Assembly (NCBI GenBank): GCA_021323655.1
Contig: JAJPKO010000042.1
Location: 1-64,000, forward strand
DNA from: Acidobacteriaceae bacterium
Lineage (GTDB): Bacteria > Acidobacteriota > Terriglobia > Terriglobales > Acidobacteriaceae
DNA length: 64,000 nt
Direction of reading: 5' to 3'
A program made the translations under genes and the position numbers. This document shows, piece by piece, positions 13,310 to 24,248 of the stretch. Numbering within the stretch: position 1 is the first letter of the stretch; every line of letters begins with the position of its first letter. The notes under the pieces were generated by a model, which ran no database searches, was not told where the DNA came from, and worked only from the letters and a program-made list of their open reading frames with translations.

Positions 13310-14206
13310 TTACACGAGGTGAGGCTTCAGAGATTGTTGTTGGGCCACGGTGAGCACGGGACAACGCGCTTCCCTGACAATCGCCGAAACAATTCCGTGT
13401 AACCGCGTTCCGTCTTCAAGGTCACCCTGATGGACGCCCATCACAATAAAATCGGCATTATTTTTTTCGGCCAACAACAGGATATTCCTTGCAATAGCCC
13501 CATGCCGGGTGAACTGCTTCACAGGCACTGCCTGTTTTTGGATGGCGCTTGCAATCTCGTCCAGTTTTTTCCTGCATGCTGCTTCATGACCAAAGCAGGA
13601 AGAGACTCCATAAGGGTCGCAGACATGGAGCAAAAGCAAGTTTGCTGAGAGACTGATGGCCAGTGAAGTTGCAGTGGGAAGGGCCGCGAGCGAACTTGCA
13701 GAGAAGTCTGTTGGAAAAAGGATGGCTTGGGCCCTCACAGAAAACGGGCCCGGCTCAACCCTGGGACCTACAGTAAGCACGCTGCATGGCACGCTGCGCA
13801 GAATGGCTTCTGCAGTCGATCCAAGGCCCTTCCCCATGCCGATTTTCATGCCGCTTGAGCCGAGGACCACTATGTCCGCGCGGCATTCCTGCTGGACCTG
13901 AAAGATCGCGTCCCTGACATTGCCATAACGAACAAGGACCTCGCCCTTAATTCCTTTGGCGGCCAGCAGGCTATCGCTGATGCGGTTCAAGTCGCTCCTG
14001 GCGGCCTCCGCAAGTTCCCGAAGATCGGAAGAAGAGGAATCCATTGGGCTGGTCGCGCCCGATGGATCAAGCACATGAACAAGGAAAAGCTTGGCCCGGT
14101 AGGCAGAAGCGATGCTCGCGGCATAGCCTAACGCAACTGACGAGTGATCAGAGAGGTCCGTCGCAAACAGAACAGTATGTATGGAGTTTTGGAGCGTGCT
14201 TGGCAT
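13310..14206 (-). CDS. Tandem-domain universal stress protein (UspA family)
   Basis: Cytoplasmic stress protein of 298 aa with two UspA domains. Domain 1 starts HTVLFATDLSDHSSVAL and carries an ATP-binding-type loop (VVLGSSGMKIGMGKGLGSTAEAI). Domain 2 starts QAILFPTDFSASSLAAL and ends IVMGVHQGDLEDGTRL...RCPVLTV, where the G-2x-G-9x-G(S/T) loop is degenerate, so only the first domain is likely to bind nucleotide. Tandem USPs are frequent in low-oxygen regulons. The gene is divergent from the hydrogenase operon, and a GTGATCTGGATCAC box (FNR-like) lies about 55 bases before its start, so co-regulation with hydrogenase under oxygen limitation is plausible. Confidence 0.92.
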   Translation of the reverse strand: MPSTLQNSIHTVLFATDLSDHSSVALGYAASIASAYRAKLFLVHVLDPSGATSPMDSSSSDLRELAEAARSDLNRISDSLLAAKGIKGEVLVRYGNVRDAIFQVQQECRADIVVLGSSGMKIGMGKGLGSTAEAILRSVPCSVLTVGPRVEPGPFSVRAQAILFPTDFSASSLAALPTATSLAISLSANLLLLHVCDPYGVSSCFGHEAACRKKLDEIASAIQKQAVPVKQFTRHGAIARNILLLAEKNNADFIVMGVHQGDLEDGTRLHGIVSAIVREARCPVLTVAQQQSLKPHLV

Positions 14207-14448: not shown

Positions 14449-15573
14449 ATGCTCCTCTCAGGGGAATCTATTCCTGAAGCATGCCAACGGCAGGGTGTAT
14501 CACGGCGGCAGTTCCTGGAGTTCTGTGCAGCAATCACAGCAACATTAGCACTGCCAACAAGCTACGCAGAAGCCATCGCCGAGGCGCTGGAGCAGCGAAG
14601 AAAACCTGTCCTCGTCTGGCTGGAATTTCAGGACTGCGCCGGCAATACCGAATCCATGCTTCGGGCCAGCCATCCCTCCGTGGAGGACATCGTCCTTGAA
14701 ACCCTCTCGTGGGAATATCACGAAACCATCATGGCCGGATACGGTAAAGCCGCCGAAGCCGCGCTGGATCGCGTCATTCGAGAAGAAAAAGGAAAATACA
14801 TCGCTGTCGTCGAAGGCGCCATTCCCACCGCTGACGACGGCGTGTATTGCACTATAGGAGGACGCACAGCGCTGGATATTGCGCGCGAAGTCTGCGGCAA
14901 TGCAGCGGCGAACATCGCCGTCGGCGCCTGCGCCTGGGATGGCGGTCTGGTCCGTTCCAATCCCAACCCCACCGGCGCGTTGGGGTTACAAGATGCCGTG
15001 CCAGGACTCAAGGTCGTGAATCTTCCAGGTTGCCCGCATAATGCGGCGAACACGGCTGCGGTGTTAGTACATTATCTGACGTTTGGCGAGATGCCTGCGC
15101 TTGATCCCTACAACCGCCCTTTGTTTGCCTATGGGCAGATCATTCATGATCAGTGCGAGCGCCGCGCCCATTACGATGCGGGCCGTTTCGTGCAGGCATG
15201 GGGGGACGAAGCGCACCGCAAGGGGTGGTGCCTGTACAAGATGGGCTGCAAGGGTCCTGAAGCGAACTACAACTGCCCGACGGTACGCTGGAATGACGCT
15301 ACCAGTTGGCCTGTGAAAGCAGGCCACGGCTGTATCGCCTGCGCGTCTCCGCGTTTCTGGGACACGAAATCACCTTTTTATGAACGACTGCCGCATCCTG
15401 CCGGATTCGGCGTAGATGTTACCGCCGGCGAGATCGGCTGGACCATTGTCGGGGCAGTGGCAGCAGCAACTGCCGCGCATGGGGTCGGTCATCTTATTCG
15501 CAACCGGATACATCCGCTGGACCAGGAAGGCGAGGAAACAAAGAAAGACGCTGCTCCCACGGAGGAACCATAA
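14449..15573 (+). CDS. hyaA: [NiFe] hydrogenase small subunit (group 1, Hya type)
   Basis: Electron-transfer subunit of a membrane-bound, periplasm-facing uptake hydrogenase. The Tat signal is clear (VSRRQFLEFCAAITATLALP). Iron-sulfur ligands are largely in place: NLPGCPHN for the proximal cluster, and IHDQC, GWCLYKMGCKGP, NCP and GHGCIACASPRFWD for the distal and medial clusters. The first proximal motif reads QDCAGNTES, so the second Cys of the usual CxxC is Asn. The extra Cys pair of oxygen-tolerant group 1d enzymes is absent. A C-terminal hydrophobic helix (GWTIVGAVAAATAAHGVGHLI) anchors the subunit to the membrane next to HyaC. It is first in a ten-gene operon, with AAGGG upstream of the ATG. 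Confidence 0.95.
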   Translation: MLLSGESIPEACQRQGVSRRQFLEFCAAITATLALPTSYAEAIAEALEQRRKPVLVWLEFQDCAGNTESMLRASHPSVEDIVLETLSWEYHETIMAGYGKAAEAALDRVIREEKGKYIAVVEGAIPTADDGVYCTIGGRTALDIAREVCGNAAANIAVGACAWDGGLVRSNPNPTGALGLQDAVPGLKVVNLPGCPHNAANTAAVLVHYLTFGEMPALDPYNRPLFAYGQIIHDQCERRAHYDAGRFVQAWGDEAHRKGWCLYKMGCKGPEANYNCPTVRWNDATSWPVKAGHGCIACASPRFWDTKSPFYERLPHPAGFGVDVTAGEIGWTIVGAVAAATAAHGVGHLIRNRIHPLDQEGEETKKDAAPTEEP

Positions 15574-17289
15574 GTGCCACGTGTTGTGATTGACCCAATG
15601 ACCCGCATCGAGGGCCATCTACGCATTGAGGCCGAGGTGAACGGACACGAAGTTACAGATGCCTGGAGTTCAGGCACAATGTTCCGCGGCATCGAGTTGA
15701 TCCTTCGCGGCCGCGACCCGCGGGAAGCCTGGATATGGGCGCAGCGCATCTGCGGCGTCTGCACGACTGTGCATGCACTGGCTTCGGTACGCGCTGTCGA
15801 GAACGCGCTTGGAATCGAAGTGCCGGACAATGCGCGCCTGGTGCGCAATCTGATCGCAGGCGCACAGAACGTCCACGACCACATCATTCACTTCTATCAT
15901 CTGCATGCCTTGGATTGGGTGGATGTAACGCTGGCGCTCAAAGCTGATCCGACAAAGACATCGCAGATTGCGCAGTCAATTTCCGATTGGCCGAAATCAA
16001 GCGCCGCCTATTTCAAGGGCGTGCAGGACCGCGTGAAGTCGCTGGTCGCCAGCCGCCAGCTCAGCCTGTTCAGCAGCGGCGACTGGGGGCACCCTTCTTA
16101 CCATCTGCCTCCTGAAGTGAATCTGCTGGCCGTCGCGCACTACATCGAAGCGCTTGAGTTGCAACGCGAGTTCATTCGCATCCACGCAGTTCTGGGAGGC
16201 AAAAACCCGCACCCCCAGACCTATCTTGTCGGCGGCATGACGACCGCGATGGATGCGAATGAACCAGAAGCGGTCATCAATCCCGAGCGCATCACGTTGC
16301 TCAACCAACTGGTTGCCAATGCACAGACTTTTGTGAAGCAGGTATATGTGCCGGATATACTGGCCATCGCTGGGTTCTATCGCGACTGGTTCCAGTATGG
16401 GGAGGGGCTGGGAAATTTCCTGGCCTATGGAGATTATCCGAGCGCCAGCATCAAGGACCCAGCGGGCTTTCTTTTTCCACGTGGCATCATTCTTAAGCGC
16501 GACCTTTCTGCTGTGCTTCCTTTCGATCCGAAGAATGTCACTGAATATGTGACGCATTCCTGGTACGAATACTCAGATGGCGACCAGGCGGGCAAGCATC
16601 CGTCGCTGGGTGAGACCAACCCAAAATACACCGGACCGAAGCCTCCCTACGAATATCTGAAGACGGATGAGAAGTATTCATGGCTAAAGTCGCCGCGCTA
16701 TGACGATAAACCGATGGAGGTCGGGCCGTTGGCAAGGACGCTGGTGGCCTATGCTTCCGGCAATGAGCAAATCAAGAAACTGGTTGATGGAACACTTGCA
16801 AAACTGAATCTGCCGCCCGCGGCGCTTTTCTCCACAATGGGCCGTATTGCCGCCCGCGCGCTGGAAGCACAATTCATGGTGGACAATCTCTCCGCATGGG
16901 TCCGGCAACTGGATGACAACATGGCCCACGGAGATGTTCGTATCCATAACAGTGAGAAATGGGATCCGGAGAGCTGGCCGAAGTCCTGTCAAGGCTTCGG
17001 CTTGGAAGAGGCGCCGCGTGGTTCTCTCGGGCATTGGGTCGAAATCGAAAACAAGAAAATCGTAAATTACCAGGCTGTGGTCCCATCGACCTGGAATGCA
17101 GGCCCACGCGATGCTCACGGGCAGAGAGGAGCATACGAAGCGTCGCTGTTGAAGACACCGATCACCGATCCAGAGCGGCCGCTTGAGATTCTGCGCACCG
17201 TGCATTCCTTTGATCCCTGTCTGGCATGCGCTGTGCATGTCGTGGATGCGACGGGTCGTCTATATAGCCGAAGAGCAGTGGCGGTCTAA
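15574..17289 (+). CDS. hyaB: [NiFe] hydrogenase large subunit
   Basis: Catalytic subunit carrying the NiFe(CN)2CO centre that oxidises H2. The L1 motif RICGVCTTVH (Cys60, Cys63) and the L2 motif DPCLACAVH (Cys549, Cys552) supply the four Cys ligands. A 16-residue tail follows His555, to be removed by the HyaD endopeptidase. The family signatures IDPMTRIEGHLRIE and GGKNPHPQ are present. Length (571 aa) is normal. The start is GTG, directly abutting the hyaA stop, with GGAGG upstream. It is exported by hitchhiking on the Tat signal of HyaA. Confidence 0.97.
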   Translation: MPRVVIDPMTRIEGHLRIEAEVNGHEVTDAWSSGTMFRGIELILRGRDPREAWIWAQRICGVCTTVHALASVRAVENALGIEVPDNARLVRNLIAGAQNVHDHIIHFYHLHALDWVDVTLALKADPTKTSQIAQSISDWPKSSAAYFKGVQDRVKSLVASRQLSLFSSGDWGHPSYHLPPEVNLLAVAHYIEALELQREFIRIHAVLGGKNPHPQTYLVGGMTTAMDANEPEAVINPERITLLNQLVANAQTFVKQVYVPDILAIAGFYRDWFQYGEGLGNFLAYGDYPSASIKDPAGFLFPRGIILKRDLSAVLPFDPKNVTEYVTHSWYEYSDGDQAGKHPSLGETNPKYTGPKPPYEYLKTDEKYSWLKSPRYDDKPMEVGPLARTLVAYASGNEQIKKLVDGTLAKLNLPPAALFSTMGRIAARALEAQFMVDNLSAWVRQLDDNMAHGDVRIHNSEKWDPESWPKSCQGFGLEEAPRGSLGHWVEIENKKIVNYQAVVPSTWNAGPRDAHGQRGAYEASLLKTPITDPERPLEILRTVHSFDPCLACAVHVVDATGRLYSRRAVAV

Positions 17290-17301: not shown

Positions 17302-18015
17302 ATGGCGACCAGTATCAAGACTCACGATGTTGAACAACCTGAAATCGTGCCGGTTTATGTCTGGCAGTGGCCCGTACGCATCGCGCACTGGATGATGGTG
17401 CTTTCGCTCACAGTTCTCACTGTCACGGGGTTCTACATGCACCATCCGTTTCTCGTGGCTACCGGTTCGAAGGCCTGGGTGATGGGCACAGCACGCTTCG
17501 TGCATGAGCTGTTCGGATTCATCCTGATCGCAGCGGTCCTCCTCCGTCTCTACTGGTTCTTCGCAGGGAACAAGTGGGCGCATTGGCACGCATGGGTCCC
17601 GCTGAAACGGGAACAATGGCGCAGCATGTACAGCATGGTCCTCTATTACACCTACCGGCGCCGTGAGCCATTTCCTGAGATCGGGCATAACTCGCTGGCG
17701 ACCGCCTCTTATCTCGGCATTGGCTTTTTCCTTGTTGTGGAATGCGTGACCGGGCTTGTGCTCTTCAGCGTGGTGCGTGGAAGCCGCTGGTTGACGTTGT
17801 TAGTAGGCTGGATACCGCGCATTGTGGACATTCAGTACATCCGCGCCACTCATTACTTCGTGATGTTCATCTTCATGGCGTTTCTGATCCACCACGTCTA
17901 CAGCGCCGTGCTGGTCTCGATGGAGCAAAAGAACGGTTTGATGGAGAGCATCTTCACAGGTTGGAAGTTTGTCCGCAAAGATCTGGTGGAGCAGGAGCGA
18001 GAAAACACGCGATGA
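17302..18015 (+). CDS. hyaC: Ni/Fe-hydrogenase b-type cytochrome subunit
   Basis: Integral membrane di-heme cytochrome b that accepts electrons from HyaA and passes them to the quinone pool. Four hydrophobic segments are visible, with candidate heme-ligand His residues in PVRIAHWMMVLS, RFVHELFGFIL and THYFVMFIFMAFLIHHVYS. Length of 237 aa is typical. It lies 12 bases after hyaB and overlaps hyaD (ATGA). Its presence argues that H2 electrons enter the respiratory chain rather than only a soluble carrier. Confidence 0.95.
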   Translation: MATSIKTHDVEQPEIVPVYVWQWPVRIAHWMMVLSLTVLTVTGFYMHHPFLVATGSKAWVMGTARFVHELFGFILIAAVLLRLYWFFAGNKWAHWHAWVPLKREQWRSMYSMVLYYTYRRREPFPEIGHNSLATASYLGIGFFLVVECVTGLVLFSVVRGSRWLTLLVGWIPRIVDIQYIRATHYFVMFIFMAFLIHHVYSAVLVSMEQKNGLMESIFTGWKFVRKDLVEQERENTR

Positions 18016-18494
18016 GCAAAATCGTGGTGCTCGGCCTTGGGAACCTGATGCGTACGGATGACGGCGCTGGCATTTCAGCGTTGCATTTGCTGTTGGCAGA
18101 CAAGCGCCTTCCCGCCGACATTCAGATGATCGAAGGCGGGACGCTGGGTCTTGATCTGCTGCATCCGCTCCAGGGAGTGACGCACCTTGTTGTACTGGAT
18201 GCCGTGGACGTGGGCGCGGCTCCGGGCGCGTTGTTGCGGTTTGAGAACGCAGAGCTGGCTGCACTGCCGGTGGCGAAGAGCGTGCATCTGCTCGGGTTTG
18301 CTGATCTGCTGGGCGCAATGAAGCTGCTGGGTCATGCGCCTGAAGAGATTGTGCTCCTTGGCATCCAGCCTGAATCCACGGATTGGGGAGTAGTCTTGTC
18401 GCCCAGCATCCAGGCGGCCATGGATCAGCTTGTAGAAGCAGCTGTTGCCCAGGTCCACGCATGGGAGCAACAAGCGGTCGAACTAGCTTCATAG
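18012..18494 (+). CDS. hyaD: Hydrogenase maturation endopeptidase
   Basis: Protease of the HyaD/HybD family (160 aa) that clips the C-terminal tail of HyaB after nickel insertion. Seen: VVLGLGNLMRTDDGAG at the N-terminus with the nickel-binding Glu/Asp region, VVLDAVDVGAAPG in the middle, and a His in the HLLGFADLL region. The ATG at 18012 overlaps the hyaC stop by four bases. The long in-frame extension upstream lies inside hyaC and is not used. Confidence 0.93.
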   Translation: MSKIVVLGLGNLMRTDDGAGISALHLLLADKRLPADIQMIEGGTLGLDLLHPLQGVTHLVVLDAVDVGAAPGALLRFENAELAALPVAKSVHLLGFADLLGAMKLLGHAPEEIVLLGIQPESTDWGVVLSPSIQAAMDQLVEAAVAQVHAWEQQAVELAS

Positions 18495-18508
18495 AAGAAA
18501 GGCCTGTC

Positions 18509-18793
18509 ATGTGTCTTGCGATTCCAGGCAAAGTAATCTCCGTTGGCGAAGAGAACGGCATTCGCATCGGCCGTGTGCTCTTCGGCGGTGTAACGCAGCC
18601 TGTTTCCCTCGATTTTGTTCCTGAGGCATCAATAGGCGATTACGTGATGGTACATGTGGGTTTTGCCATCAGCCGCGTCAATCAGGAAGAAGCAGAGAAG
18701 ACCTGGCAGACGTTGGAAGAGATGGGTTTGTTGGCAGGGGAATTACCAGAAGCCAATAGAACCGCCGGTTTAGCAGAAAGGGACCAATCATGA
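18509..18793 (+). CDS. hypC: HypC/HupF hydrogenase assembly chaperone
   Basis: Small chaperone (94 aa) that, with HypD, carries the Fe(CN)2CO unit to the large subunit. The N-terminus MCLAIPGKV contains the essential Cys2. An OB-fold-like core follows (GVTQPVSLDFVPEASIGDYVMVHVGFAISRV). AAAGG lies just upstream of the ATG. It overlaps hypD by four bases. Confidence 0.96.
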   Translation: MCLAIPGKVISVGEENGIRIGRVLFGGVTQPVSLDFVPEASIGDYVMVHVGFAISRVNQEEAEKTWQTLEEMGLLAGELPEANRTAGLAERDQS

Positions 18794-19893
18794 AATATCT
18801 GGATGAATACCGTGACAGCCAGATGGTGAAACGTCTGCTCGAAAAGATCCGGCGCACAGTCACTCAGCATTTGGTGCTGATGGAGATCTGCGGCGGCCAG
18901 ACACATACAATCATGCGCTATGGCCTGGATGAACTGTTGCCTCCGCAGATTGAACTGGTGCATGGTCCGGGATGCCCTGTATGCGTGACATCGACAAGCA
19001 TTCTCGACCGCGCCATAGAGGTGGCGCAGCGTGAGGATGTGACGCTTGTTTCTTATGGGGATATGCTGCGTGTGCCTGGCTCGAAGACCGATTTGCTCTC
19101 GGCGAAATCCCGCGGAGCAGATGTGCGCATGGTCTATTCGCCGCTCGATGCCTTGCGGATCGCACGACAGACCCCGGAGCGCAAAATTGTCTTTCTGGCG
19201 GTTGGATTCGAGACCACAGCGCCCGCGAATGCCATGGCGGTATGGCAGGCCCATCGTGAAGGATTGAATAACTTCTTTCTTCTGGCTTCGCATGTGCTTG
19301 TTCCACCTGCCATTCGCGCATTGGCCGGCTCGCCGGACAACCGCGTACAGGGATTTATCGCACCAGGACATGTATGCACTGTGGTCGGATGCCGCGACTA
19401 TGAAGACTTGGTGCAGGAATTCCGAATGCCCATCGTCGTGGGCGGCTTTGAGCCGGTTGACCTGCTTCAGGCAATCGCCGTCCTGGTCACCATGCTTGAG
19501 GAGGGTCGCGCTGCATTTTCCAATGAATACGCGCGCTCGGTGAGTTATCGCGGCAACATCGAGGCGCAACGGATCCTGGCCGAAGTATTTGAAGTCGCGG
19601 ACCAGCCCTGGCGCGGCCTTGGCGAAATTCCGCAGAGCGGTTTGCGCCTAAAGAGCAAGTTCGCAGCTTACGATGCCAACCAGGTATTCGCGCTGACGAT
19701 TCCGGAAGTGGAGGCCTCCTCGGTTTGCATCAGCGCGAAAATCTTGAAAGGCCTGAAAAAGCCGACCGATTGCTCTGTGTTTGGCCATTCTTGTACGCCC
19801 GAGAGCCCACTGGGAGCGCCAATGGTTTCTTCTGAAGGCGCTTGCTCGGCCTATTACCAATACCGTCGGCACGATCTTGTGGTGATCCAATGA
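18790..19893 (+). CDS. hypD: Hydrogenase formation protein HypD
   Basis: Iron-sulfur scaffold (367 aa) on which CN and CO ligands are attached to iron. Conserved motifs: MEICGGQTHTIMRYG, HGPGCPVCVT, GFETTAP, and the C-terminal Cys-rich part VCISAKILKGLKKPTDCSVF plus GHSCTPESPLGAPMVSSEG that binds the 4Fe-4S cluster. It forms the ligand-transfer complex with the neighbouring HypC and HypE. It overlaps both by ATGA junctions. Confidence 0.97.
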   Translation: MKYLDEYRDSQMVKRLLEKIRRTVTQHLVLMEICGGQTHTIMRYGLDELLPPQIELVHGPGCPVCVTSTSILDRAIEVAQREDVTLVSYGDMLRVPGSKTDLLSAKSRGADVRMVYSPLDALRIARQTPERKIVFLAVGFETTAPANAMAVWQAHREGLNNFFLLASHVLVPPAIRALAGSPDNRVQGFIAPGHVCTVVGCRDYEDLVQEFRMPIVVGGFEPVDLLQAIAVLVTMLEEGRAAFSNEYARSVSYRGNIEAQRILAEVFEVADQPWRGLGEIPQSGLRLKSKFAAYDANQVFALTIPEVEASSVCISAKILKGLKKPTDCSVFGHSCTPESPLGAPMVSSEGACSAYYQYRRHDLVVIQ

Positions 19894-20930
19894 ACCCACT
19901 CAGTTGTCCACTTCCTCTTACTGAAACGGAAACTGTCCTGTCTGGACATGGCAGCGGAGGCAAGCTTACCGCGGAGCTTTTCCGCAGCATTTTCCTTCCG
20001 GCATTCAGCAATTCCATTCTTGGCAGGATGGACGACCAGGCGCTGCTTGAAATTGAAAGCGCCAGACTCGCATTTACAACGGACTCCTTTGTTGTGAAGC
20101 CGCTCTTCTTTCGCGGAGGTGACATTGGATCGCTCGCCGTCCACGGGACCGTGAACGACCTGGCCGTTGGCGGAGCAAGGCCTCTGTTTTTGAGTGCTGC
20201 TTTCATTCTGGAAGAAGGGCTTCCAATAGCAACGTTGCGCCGCATCGTCACCTCCATGCAGGAGGCTGCTGCGCGCGCAGGCGTGCAGATTGTCACCGGC
20301 GATACCAAAGTTGTCGAAAAGGGCAGCTGCGATGGGATGTTTGTAAATACTGCCGGCATCGGTATTATCGAAACTACTTTGCGCCTCTCCGCAGACCAGG
20401 CACGCCCGGGCGATGTCGTTCTGCTCAGCGGCCCTATTGGCGACCATGGTATCGCTATCCTGGCCGAGCGCGAGGGGCTGTCATTCGAGTCGGAAATCGC
20501 AAGTGATACTGCGCCACTGTATTCGCTGGTTGCGGACATGCTTGAAACCAGAGCAACCCTGCGCTGTATGCGCGACCCTACCCGTGGCGGCGTGGCCAGC
20601 GCCTCGAATGAGATTGCGCAAACGTCCCATGTAGGCATTCAGCTTTATGAAGAATCCATTCCAGTAAAACCAGAGGTGCGCGGGGCGTGTGAACTTCTGG
20701 GAATCGATCCGCTGTATATCGCCAATGAAGGAAAACTACTGGCAATCACCGCGCCTGAAGACGCTGAACGACTGCTTGATGCCATGCGACGGAATCCACT
20801 GGGTACGGATGCGGCCGTGATCGGGAAGGTAAGCAGCGAAAATCCAGGCATGGTTACGTTGCGCACTTCCTTTGGCACAACCAGGATCATGGACATGCTG
20901 GCCAACGATCCGCTTCCTCGGATCTGCTGA
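19890..20930 (+). CDS. hypE: Hydrogenase maturation protein HypE
   Basis: PurM-like ATPase that dehydrates the carbamoylated C-terminal Cys to a thiocyanate, the cyanide donor for the active-site iron. The start at 19890 gives the family N-terminus (VLSGHGSGGKLTAELF). DDQALLEIE, AVHGTVNDLAVGGARP, VTGDTKVVEKG and DPTRGGVASASNEIA follow. The C-terminus is PRIC, with the required terminal Cys. It works on carbamoyl groups supplied by HypF, encoded four genes along. Confidence 0.97.
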   Translation: MNPLSCPLPLTETETVLSGHGSGGKLTAELFRSIFLPAFSNSILGRMDDQALLEIESARLAFTTDSFVVKPLFFRGGDIGSLAVHGTVNDLAVGGARPLFLSAAFILEEGLPIATLRRIVTSMQEAAARAGVQIVTGDTKVVEKGSCDGMFVNTAGIGIIETTLRLSADQARPGDVVLLSGPIGDHGIAILAEREGLSFESEIASDTAPLYSLVADMLETRATLRCMRDPTRGGVASASNEIAQTSHVGIQLYEESIPVKPEVRGACELLGIDPLYIANEGKLLAITAPEDAERLLDAMRRNPLGTDAAVIGKVSSENPGMVTLRTSFGTTRIMDMLANDPLPRIC

Positions 20931-20936
20931 AGAGTC

Positions 20937-21284
20937 ATGCACGAAGTTGCGATCGCCGCCGCCATTCTTGAAGCCGGACAGGCCGAAGCCGAGCGGCGTC
21001 CGGGATCAAAGCTGACGGGTATCGGTGTACGCCTCGGGGCTCTTTCCGGAGTAGACAGCGATGCATTGCGGTTTGCTTTCGCCGCGCTCACGGCAGGAAC
21101 GTATCTGGATGCACTGAAGTTTGAAATTGAAAGCCGTCCGCGGCGCAATCGCTGCGAACGTTGCGGTCACGAGTTTGAGTCCTCGCTGTACAACGCTCCC
21201 TGCCCATTGTGCGCAAGTGAAAATACTCTGTTTGTCGGCGGCGATGATCTGGAACTGGCATGGGTAGAAGTGGAGGAAATATGA
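20937..21284 (+). CDS. hypA: Hydrogenase nickel incorporation protein HypA
   Basis: Nickel metallochaperone of 115 aa. MHEVAIA at the N-terminus gives the nickel-binding His2. The zinc site is formed by two CxxC motifs (CERCGHEF and CPLCASEN). It acts with HypB, whose gene overlaps it by four bases. Confidence 0.96.
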   Translation: MHEVAIAAAILEAGQAEAERRPGSKLTGIGVRLGALSGVDSDALRFAFAALTAGTYLDALKFEIESRPRRNRCERCGHEFESSLYNAPCPLCASENTLFVGGDDLELAWVEVEEI

Positions 21285-21961
21285 CTGTCATACCAGTTGA
21301 AAAAAAGGTGCTGAGCGAGAACCAACGCATCGCCGCGTCTTTGCGCAGCCGCTTTGAAGAACACGGCATATTCTGCCTGAACCTCATCAGCTCCCCAGGT
21401 TCGGGCAAGACAACTCTGCTCGAACGGACGCTCGCTGGCCTAAGCCCGCAGGAGCGTGTCGCCGTGTTGACGGGCGACTTACAGACAGAAAACGATGCAA
21501 AACGTCTGTCCCATTATGGGTTTCCAGTTCAGCAGATTACGACTGGAGGCATCTGCCATCTCGACGCCGGAATGATTGAACGCGCGTTGAACATGTGGCA
21601 GTTGGATGACATCGACTTGCTCATCATTGAAAACGTCGGCAACCTGGTATGCCCGTCCAGCTATGACCTGGGCGAAGAGGTGAAAATTGTTCTGTTGAGC
21701 GTGACCGAGGGCGAAGACAAGCCGCTGAAATACCCATCGATCTTTGCTAAGTCTGAATTATTGCTGCTGACAAAAATCGACCTTCTGCCGCATGTTCCGT
21801 TCAGGATCGAACAAGCGCGCACGAATGCGAGGCTGGTCCACCCCGCCATGAAAATCATTGAAGTATCGAGCACAACCGGAGAAGGACTTGAGCAGTGGCT
21901 GACATGGATAAAGCGTCGCCGCCAGCAGATGTACCAGCGCATCTGCGCTGCGTATGGGTAA
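21281..21961 (+). CDS. hypB: Hydrogenase nickel incorporation GTPase HypB
   Basis: GTPase (226 aa) that drives nickel delivery to HyaB. P-loop SSPGSGKTTLLE, the metal-site region TTGGICHLDAGM, ENVGNLVCPSSYDLGE, and the guanine-specificity motif LTKIDLL are present. It lacks the His-rich N-terminal stretch of nickel-storing HypB proteins. I use ATG 21281 (GGAGG five bases before; overlap with the hypA stop) rather than an earlier in-frame start inside hypA. Confidence 0.96.
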   Translation: MTVIPVEKKVLSENQRIAASLRSRFEEHGIFCLNLISSPGSGKTTLLERTLAGLSPQERVAVLTGDLQTENDAKRLSHYGFPVQQITTGGICHLDAGMIERALNMWQLDDIDLLIIENVGNLVCPSSYDLGEEVKIVLLSVTEGEDKPLKYPSIFAKSELLLLTKIDLLPHVPFRIEQARTNARLVHPAMKIIEVSSTTGEGLEQWLTWIKRRRQQMYQRICAAYG

Positions 21962-24248
21962 GAAAACGATGACAGTTCGGAAGCGTATCGATGTTTCGGG
22001 CATTGTTCAGGGTGTGGGTTTTCGCCCCCATGTCTATCGCCTTGCGCATCGCTACTGCCTGAGCGGCCAGGTGCGAAACACCGTAGCCGGCGTGACCGTT
22101 GAGGTGCAGGGTGAGTCCGGCGCGATAAAGCAGTTTGTGCGCAGCCTGGAAGAAGAAGCGCCGCCGCTGGCACAGGTCACAGGCGTCTTTGTTGCTGACC
22201 TCGAGTGCAAAGCAGAAAACGGCTTCCATATCGTAAACAGTCCTCAGGGTGGGCGCGTGGATACATTGATCGCCCCGGACATCGCCACCTGTTCCGATTG
22301 CCTGCACGAATTGTTCGACCCTGCTGACAGGCGTTACGGTTACCCCTTCATCAACTGCACCAACTGCGGCCCACGCTTCACAATTCTGGGGCACATCCCT
22401 TATGATCGGCCCAACACCTCTATGGCCGCATTTACGATGTGCGCCACCTGCCAGGCTGAATATGACAACCCTCTGGATCGCCGCTTTCATGCCCAGCCCA
22501 ATGCCTGCTGGGAATGCGGACCGATGCTGGCGTTGCTGGACAGCGAGGGAGAACAGGTTGTGCGTGATCCCCTTGAAGAAACGATAGCGCTGCTCAAAAC
22601 GGGCCGCATAGTTGCGATCAAGGGGCTTGGCGGGTTCCACCTTGCGGTCGATGCGACCAATACCGAAGCTGTTAAGGAGTTGCGGCGGCGCAAAAAGCGT
22701 TTCGAAAAACCCTTTGCGGTGATGGTGGCCAGCTCACATGACGCGGAAGAGTTCTGCGTTGTCGGCCTGAAAGACCGGGTCCTGCTTGAATCTCCCCAGC
22801 GGCCCATCGTGCTGTTGAAAGCACGGAGCGGTTCTGGATTATCAGATGCCATTGCGCCGTGCAATCCTGAGCTTGGCATTTTTCTTCCCTATACTCCAGT
22901 CCAACACTTGCTGTTTGCGCATGGACAGTTTCGTGCGCTGGTCATGACCAGCGCCAACCTGAGCGAAGAGCCAATCTGCGTTGATAACGAAGAAGCGGTC
23001 GGGCGGCTGCATAGCATTGCAGACTTCTTTCTCGTCCATAACCGTGACATCCGGCTGCGCTGTGATGACTCTGTAGTTCGCAGCGTCCAGGGGCGAACTA
23101 CAATTCTGCGCCGTTCCCGAGGCTATGTTCCCGCACCAATCGCTCTCAAGGACGAACTCCCTGCCATTCTTGCTGTCGGAGGTGAACTGAAGAACGCCAT
23201 CTGCCTTACCAAAGGCAGGAACGCTTTTCTGGGTCAGCATGTAGGCGATCTTGAGAACCTTGCAGCTTACAGTTTCTTTCGGGAATCGATCGCACATCTC
23301 AAAAATATCCTTCAAATAGAACCAGAGGCGATTGCGTACGATCTGCATCCTGGCTATCTCTCGACGCAGTGGACGCTCCAGCAAAAAGCCGTCAGGACCA
23401 TCGGCGTGCAACACCATCATGCGCATGTTGCCAGTTGCATGGCAGAGAACCATCTTTCTGGGCCAGTCATCGGTGTTGTGCTCGATGGCACAGGTTATGG
23501 GACGGACGCACAGATATGGGGTGGCGAGATTCTGGTGGCTGACTTCAGGGATTTCAGAAGGGCTGCGCATCTTGAATACGTGCCTATGCCGGGAGCCGTG
23601 CAGGCTATTCGAGAGCCTTGGCGGATGGCCGTAGCACATTTGCTCCATGCCGATCCGGACTGTTTCGAACAGAATTGCAGGTTTCTTAAAACTCTCCCTC
23701 GCGAACGCATTGATATAGCGCGACAAATGGCTGCGCGACAAGTCCGCTCTCCGCTTACCTCCAGTTGCGGACGGCTGTTCGACGCTGTGGCTGCGCTGAT
23801 CGGCTTGCGCACCCACGTGTCCTTTGAAGCGCAGGCTGCGATGGAACTCGAAGCCTGTTGCGAGGATGCTGTTGAGGACAGTCCTTATACCCTTACGATC
23901 AGGAAGGAAGATGACTGCTTTAGTATCGGCACGGCACGGCTCTTTCAGGAGATTCTGGATGATCTGTACGAAGGCGTACCTAAGGGAACGATCAGCTTGC
24001 GCTTCCACAAAGGTCTGATCGCGGTATTCGCCAACTTGGTCCAGCAGATTTCCCGTGAAACCGGCATCCGGCAGGTTTGCCTCAGCGGTGGATGCTTCCT
24101 GAATCTGCGTCTTTCTGTTGGACTTGAAGAGAAGCTTAAGCTGTTGGGTTTTAAGGTATTTACGCAGTCGCAAGTCCCTCCCGGCGACGGTGGTCTGGGC
24201 CTCGGGCAAGCAGTCATTGCAGCCCATCACATCCATCAAGGTCTGTGA
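21954..24248 (+). CDS. hypF: Carbamoyltransferase HypF
   Basis: Enzyme of 764 aa that makes carbamoyl adenylate and transfers the carbamoyl group to HypE. Parts in order: acylphosphatase-like domain (GIVQGVGFRPHVYRLA), two zinc-finger motifs (CSDCLHELFDP, CTNCGPRFT, CATCQAEYDNP, CWECGP), YrdC-like domain (IVAIKGLGGFHLA to RDIRLRCDDSVVR), and Kae1-like domain (HHHAHVASCMAEN, GVVLDGTGYG, CLSGGCFLN). It overlaps hypB by eight bases; an ATG at 21969 is an alternative start. The last gene of the hya-hyp operon; its stop lies inside the palindrome at 24244-24259. Confidence 0.97.
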   Translation: MGKKTMTVRKRIDVSGIVQGVGFRPHVYRLAHRYCLSGQVRNTVAGVTVEVQGESGAIKQFVRSLEEEAPPLAQVTGVFVADLECKAENGFHIVNSPQGGRVDTLIAPDIATCSDCLHELFDPADRRYGYPFINCTNCGPRFTILGHIPYDRPNTSMAAFTMCATCQAEYDNPLDRRFHAQPNACWECGPMLALLDSEGEQVVRDPLEETIALLKTGRIVAIKGLGGFHLAVDATNTEAVKELRRRKKRFEKPFAVMVASSHDAEEFCVVGLKDRVLLESPQRPIVLLKARSGSGLSDAIAPCNPELGIFLPYTPVQHLLFAHGQFRALVMTSANLSEEPICVDNEEAVGRLHSIADFFLVHNRDIRLRCDDSVVRSVQGRTTILRRSRGYVPAPIALKDELPAILAVGGELKNAICLTKGRNAFLGQHVGDLENLAAYSFFRESIAHLKNILQIEPEAIAYDLHPGYLSTQWTLQQKAVRTIGVQHHHAHVASCMAENHLSGPVIGVVLDGTGYGTDAQIWGGEILVADFRDFRRAAHLEYVPMPGAVQAIREPWRMAVAHLLHADPDCFEQNCRFLKTLPRERIDIARQMAARQVRSPLTSSCGRLFDAVAALIGLRTHVSFEAQAAMELEACCEDAVEDSPYTLTIRKEDDCFSIGTARLFQEILDDLYEGVPKGTISLRFHKGLIAVFANLVQQISRETGIRQVCLSGGCFLNLRLSVGLEEKLKLLGFKVFTQSQVPPGDGGLGLGQAVIAAHHIHQGL

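Follow-up and report, generated by a model that had tools for sequence, protein, structure and literature searches.

An asparagine at the place of a cluster-binding cysteine in the small subunit of a [NiFe] hydrogenase raises the question whether the ligand is truly lost or supplied from elsewhere in the protein, how this state evolved and what it may mean for the electron path of the enzyme. The case considered here is HyaA of a soil-type Acidobacteriaceae bacterium (GenBank assembly GCA_021323655.1), encoded in a 64,000 nt stretch of contig JAJPKO010000042.1 that is called the window hereafter. The first-pass annotation, made from the letters alone, had claimed that one ligand of the proximal cluster would be Asn instead of Cys, or absent. 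The gene hyaA (14449–15573, + strand) was recognized as a [NiFe] hydrogenase small subunit by TIGR00391 (409 bits, NCBIfam cut-off 179.5) and its open reading frame encodes 374 amino acids. The protein begins with a Tat-type leader (SRRQFLEFC), ends in a hydrophobic anchor segment, and its AF2 model (input of 101 sequences) reached a pLDDT of 91 and a TM score of 0.94 to 3myr.

In the HyaA motif WLEFQDCAGNTES, codons 63 to 66 (14635–14646, + strand) read TGC GCC GGC AAT and hence C63-A-G-N66, with the AAT codon of N66 at 14644–14646. In phmmer alignments with the Desulfovibrio vulgaris enzyme 1h2a and with Hyd-2 enzymes, the string dcagntes paired without gaps with the ECxGC(S/T)ES motif, which places N66 on the second proximal cysteine, as the first-pass annotation had proposed. 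The offset between HyaA and the numbering of Hyd-1 and MBH is constant at 46 (C63=C17, N66=C20, C161=C115, C195=C149); therefore, Asn66 corresponds to position 20, the second proximal ligand, which is Cys20 in E. coli Hyd-1. According to the alignment, the third and fourth proximal ligands are C161 (GACAWDGG, 14929–14931, + strand) and C195 (PGCPHN, 15031–15033, + strand). Together with Cys63 they are intact, and so are the medial and distal sets including the canonical distal His233 and medial Pro288.

Two circumstances had been named in the first-pass annotation as reasons to abandon this assignment, a sequencing error and another cysteine acting as the fourth ligand. An error in sequencing or assembly is refuted and carries next to no probability, because the same Asn is found in six orthologues with 69–78% identity to HyaA and recurs across several phyla, in dozens of independent genomes. 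As for another ligand, Cys134, Cys149 or an acidic residue might replace the lost one, so that the proximal cluster would be an ordinary four-ligand [4Fe-4S] cluster. Cys134 and Cys149 are kept in the seven closest sequences, and E122 occupies the position of Hyd-1 E76, a residue that approaches the proximal cluster. However, Cys134 also occurs in 31 of 36 outgroup enzymes with the canonical Cys, the Bryobacteraceae members that keep Cys66 possess both Cys134 and Cys149, and Cys149 is absent from some Asn members. As both cysteines thus occur beside Cys66 and Cys134 is present in most outgroup enzymes, neither substitutes for the lost ligand. An alignment scan for compensating cysteines found no Cys column gained alongside Asn, and no other Cys takes over the role of the fourth ligand in the alignment. 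Hence, we consider compensation highly improbable. A strict partner residue of the Asn was sought as well. Trp163-Asp164 is common together with Asn in Acidobacteriota and Chloroflexota, but many Asn enzymes have Ala, Phe or Tyr there, and Asp164 is retained in the Bryobacteraceae Cys members; the candidate was rejected.

The genomic context is that of a complete hydrogenase operon on the + strand, in which hyaA comes first, followed by hyaB, hyaC, hyaD, hypC, hypD, hypE, hypA, hypB and hypF. The large subunit gene hyaB (15574–17289) encodes the motifs RICGVCTTVHA (L1) and SFDPCLACAVH (L2), and hyaC (17302–18015; TIGR02125, 134.9 bits, cut-off 121.5) the b-type cytochrome subunit that provides the quinone link. 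The maturation endopeptidase gene hyaD/hupD (18012–18494) scored 126.9 bits with TIGR00072, above the cut-off. Among the hyp genes, hypC (18509–18793) was read by eye from the MCLAIPGKV start within the open reading frame 18383–18793; hypD (18790–19893; TIGR00075, 496 bits), hypE (19890–20930, start inferred; TIGR02124, 458 bits) and hypB (21260–21961; TIGR00073, 285 bits) were found by their models, and hypA (20937–21284) reached 78 bits with TIGR00100, slightly below the cut-off of 88. The assignment of hypF (21954–24248) was made by eye from its reading frame and position, with matches in sister operons. No second related small subunit was found in the window genome. Divergent from the operon, positions 13310–14206 (− strand) contain a double universal-stress-protein gene, likewise read by eye.

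The order small subunit, large subunit, cytochrome b and hyaD is retained in most named relatives. In some Acidobacteriota (L033, L040, L052 and L067, the latter being Bryocella elongata) the large subunit lies on the opposite strand near the small subunit and cytochrome b. Two further loci (L069, L043) show two tandem small-subunit matches adjoining cytochrome b, which points to a duplication or a split gene.

A scan of named genomes yielded 80 further loci, and together with the query 63 carry Asn, 9 Asp and 9 Cys at the site. For the phylogeny, the sample was enlarged by loci from Acidobacteriota and from the phyla to which Geomonas, Roseiflexus and a Nitrospirae genome belong, and a quick tree of 152 rows with SH-aLRT as the one support measure was built without the ligand column. 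The window enzyme belongs to a clade of 100 rows (SH-aLRT 94) with 60 Asn, 29 Asp and 11 Cys, which it shares with the enzymes of Roseiflexus and Geobacteraceae. The enzymes of both have been called group 1f, with Asn or Asp at the proximal cluster (PMC5364354, PMC6776052). HyaA has both this clade membership and the exchange of the proximal Cys, and by kinship on the tree, not by the HydDB classifier, it is assigned to HydDB group 1f.

Over the whole tree, the site changed its state at least 15 times, and on well-supported branches at least nine changes were counted for each of the states Asn and Asp. In the 100-row clade, Cys prevails on the deepest branches. A Bryobacteraceae-type Cys clade of six rows (support 99) is nested within a 38-row clade that otherwise has Asn (99), and the most plausible reading is that Cys was regained there. 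Beyond the group 1f clade stands a second acidobacterial lineage (L108–L111) with the motif CAGN and with Glu replacing Cys149; its Asn pair L108 and L110 stands separately on the 152-row tree, also outside the 100-row clade, and the lineage possibly represents an independent change from Cys to Asn. A single subfamily thus offers a natural series in which one and the same cluster-binding position varies between Asn, Asp and Cys and was switched repeatedly. This series provides matched pairs in which the effect of a non-Cys ligand on potential, affinity and O2 response can be tested in a quinone-linked hydrogenase.

One explanation for the Asn would be oxygen adaptation, i.e. that it evolved with aerobic life and gives an O2-tolerant enzyme. 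The window genome contains four matches to COX1, the heme-copper oxidase, and strong COX1 matches were present in 33 of 43 Asn-type genomes, compared to 9 of 35 Asp-type genomes and 9 of 19 genomes with a Cys-type enzyme of the 100-row clade. These raw counts are explainable by kinship, however: the supported branches provided only six independent contrasts between Asn and Asp, with a median p of 1, and COX1 is also present in each of the eight Bryobacteraceae-type Cys genomes checked. With these six contrasts, no phylogenetically independent link was found between ligand type and the heme-copper oxidase as a sign of aerobic respiration, and we regard oxygen adaptation as unlikely. More generally, the Asn may affect the redox potential or O2 tolerance of the enzyme, as the first-pass annotation had suggested.

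A separate observation was made on large subunits within this hydrogenase family. At 30 loci from Nitrospirota, Desulfobacterota and Chloroflexota, including a few duplicates from genomes fetched twice, in-frame TGA codons occur at the L1 nickel-ligand cysteines (L073:7283, L082:10848, L084:11240, L169–L179, L143, L212 and others). Both L1 cysteines are affected at 25 loci (RI-TGA-GV-TGA-TTVH, hence RIUGVU) and only the second at five (RICGVU or RFCGVU). The reading frames are otherwise intact and the L2 motif DPCxxC is retained where readable. All nine TGA genomes tested contain a strong tRNA-Sec (65–76 bits, cut-off 47) and SelB above the cut-off. Beginning 17 bases past the second UGA, a stem pairs in 85% of cells, compared to 35–58% when slid; its covariation support is weak, and RNAalifold alone did not find it. 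We consider these proteins putative double-selenocysteine hydrogenases on the basis of their gene sequences. A 2026 selenoproteome review lists hydrogenase alpha subunits only as single-Sec UxxC and confines Sec-containing [NiFe] hydrogenases to sulfate reducers and methanogens (PMC13188914). Double-Sec hydrogenases are absent from that review and may have been described elsewhere. The window HyaB is ordinary, with TGC codons at both L1 cysteines; the window genome gave a borderline tRNA-Sec match of 47.6 bits and no SelB above the cut-off.

Judged from sequence, the window enzyme is very probably a quinone-linked uptake hydrogenase of group 1f, in which three cysteines hold the proximal cluster and the fourth iron site faces Asn. 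Electrons taken from H2 at the [NiFe] site would travel along the three clusters (proximal, medial, distal) to HyaC and enter the quinone pool. The proximal cluster would be bound by Cys63, Cys161 and Cys195 with its fourth corner facing Asn66, where the iron is presumably held weakly, either in a [4Fe-4S] cluster with the Asn side chain or a water molecule as its ligand, or lost to give a [3Fe-4S] cluster as in Huc. Huc reads CSGN at the homologous site (7uur), and its three [3Fe-4S] clusters were found by cryo-EM and EPR and tied by the authors to a high potential fitting atmospheric H2 (PMC10017518). Group 1h is reported to have an Asp-coordinated proximal [4Fe-4S] cluster (PMC7174314). For the Nostoc HupS type with its unusual ligands, a report cited in PMC4070099 describes the clusters as intact and of the expected 4Fe-4S type; hence, Asn need not imply [3Fe-4S]. 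Our guess for the enzyme in air leans slightly towards [3Fe-4S] over the Asn- or water-bound [4Fe-4S]. Either state may have a higher potential than a four-Cys [4Fe-4S] cluster and would favour H2 oxidation over production.

Oxidation of sub-atmospheric H2 has been credited to group 1f in Acidobacterium ailaaui (PMC6776052, PMC7174314). Loss of the second proximal Cys might be a shared, convergent feature of those hydrogenase lineages for which uptake of sub-atmospheric H2 has been reported (Asp in 1h, Asn in 2a, Asn or Asp in 1f), in which a high-potential or site-open proximal cluster would make trace-H2 oxidation feasible; we put this forward tentatively and hold it to be rather doubtful. 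Its parts are published or shown here, and the synthesis itself was not found in the literature searched. Evidence against a strict rule comes from the Cys members of group 1f and from Asp members whose genomes gave no COX1 match.

Among the known systems, group 1d (E. coli Hyd-1, MBH) has the Tat-type leader, the cytochrome b-linked small subunit and the fold in common with HyaA. The 1d type with its extra cysteines is O2-tolerant. It possesses six Cys (CTCC plus C120, the extra ones at 19 and 120), whereas HyaA has Gly65 and Gly166 there. In Cupriavidus necator HofK (5AA5, group 1h) the second proximal Cys is replaced as well, by Asp instead of Asn: 5AA5 reads CDGD at the homologous site, which agrees with the first-pass annotation's statement on group 1h, and HyaA reads CAGN. 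The match of 5AA5 to HyaA is distant (E 1e-24) and 5AA5-like sequences form a distant branch on the tree. Huc of M. smegmatis and Nostoc HupS (group 2a) share the Asn at the same proximal position. However, Huc (7uur) is distant from HyaA, with 93 bits compared to 322 for 1h2a, and has three [3Fe-4S] clusters, in contrast to the canonical distal His and medial Pro of HyaA. The position is Asn in Nostoc punctiforme and Asp in Geobacter metallireducens, and the same-site variants C81N and C81D of Alteromonas macleodii HynS were functional in H2 evolution (PMC4070099). The closest system is group 1f itself (Roseiflexus, Geobacter, Frankia; PMC5364354), which has Asn or Asp at the proximal Cys, falls into the same clade and shows the same order of small subunit, large subunit and cytochrome b. 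An earlier paper has already reported both the exchange of Cys for Asn or Asp in group 1f and an Asn in group 2a (PMC5364354); the Asn finding as such is therefore known. Compared to group 1f, the window enzyme has no essential differences apart from being acidobacterial: its gene is an acidobacterial addition to the described group 1f trait, and its Asn is inherited.
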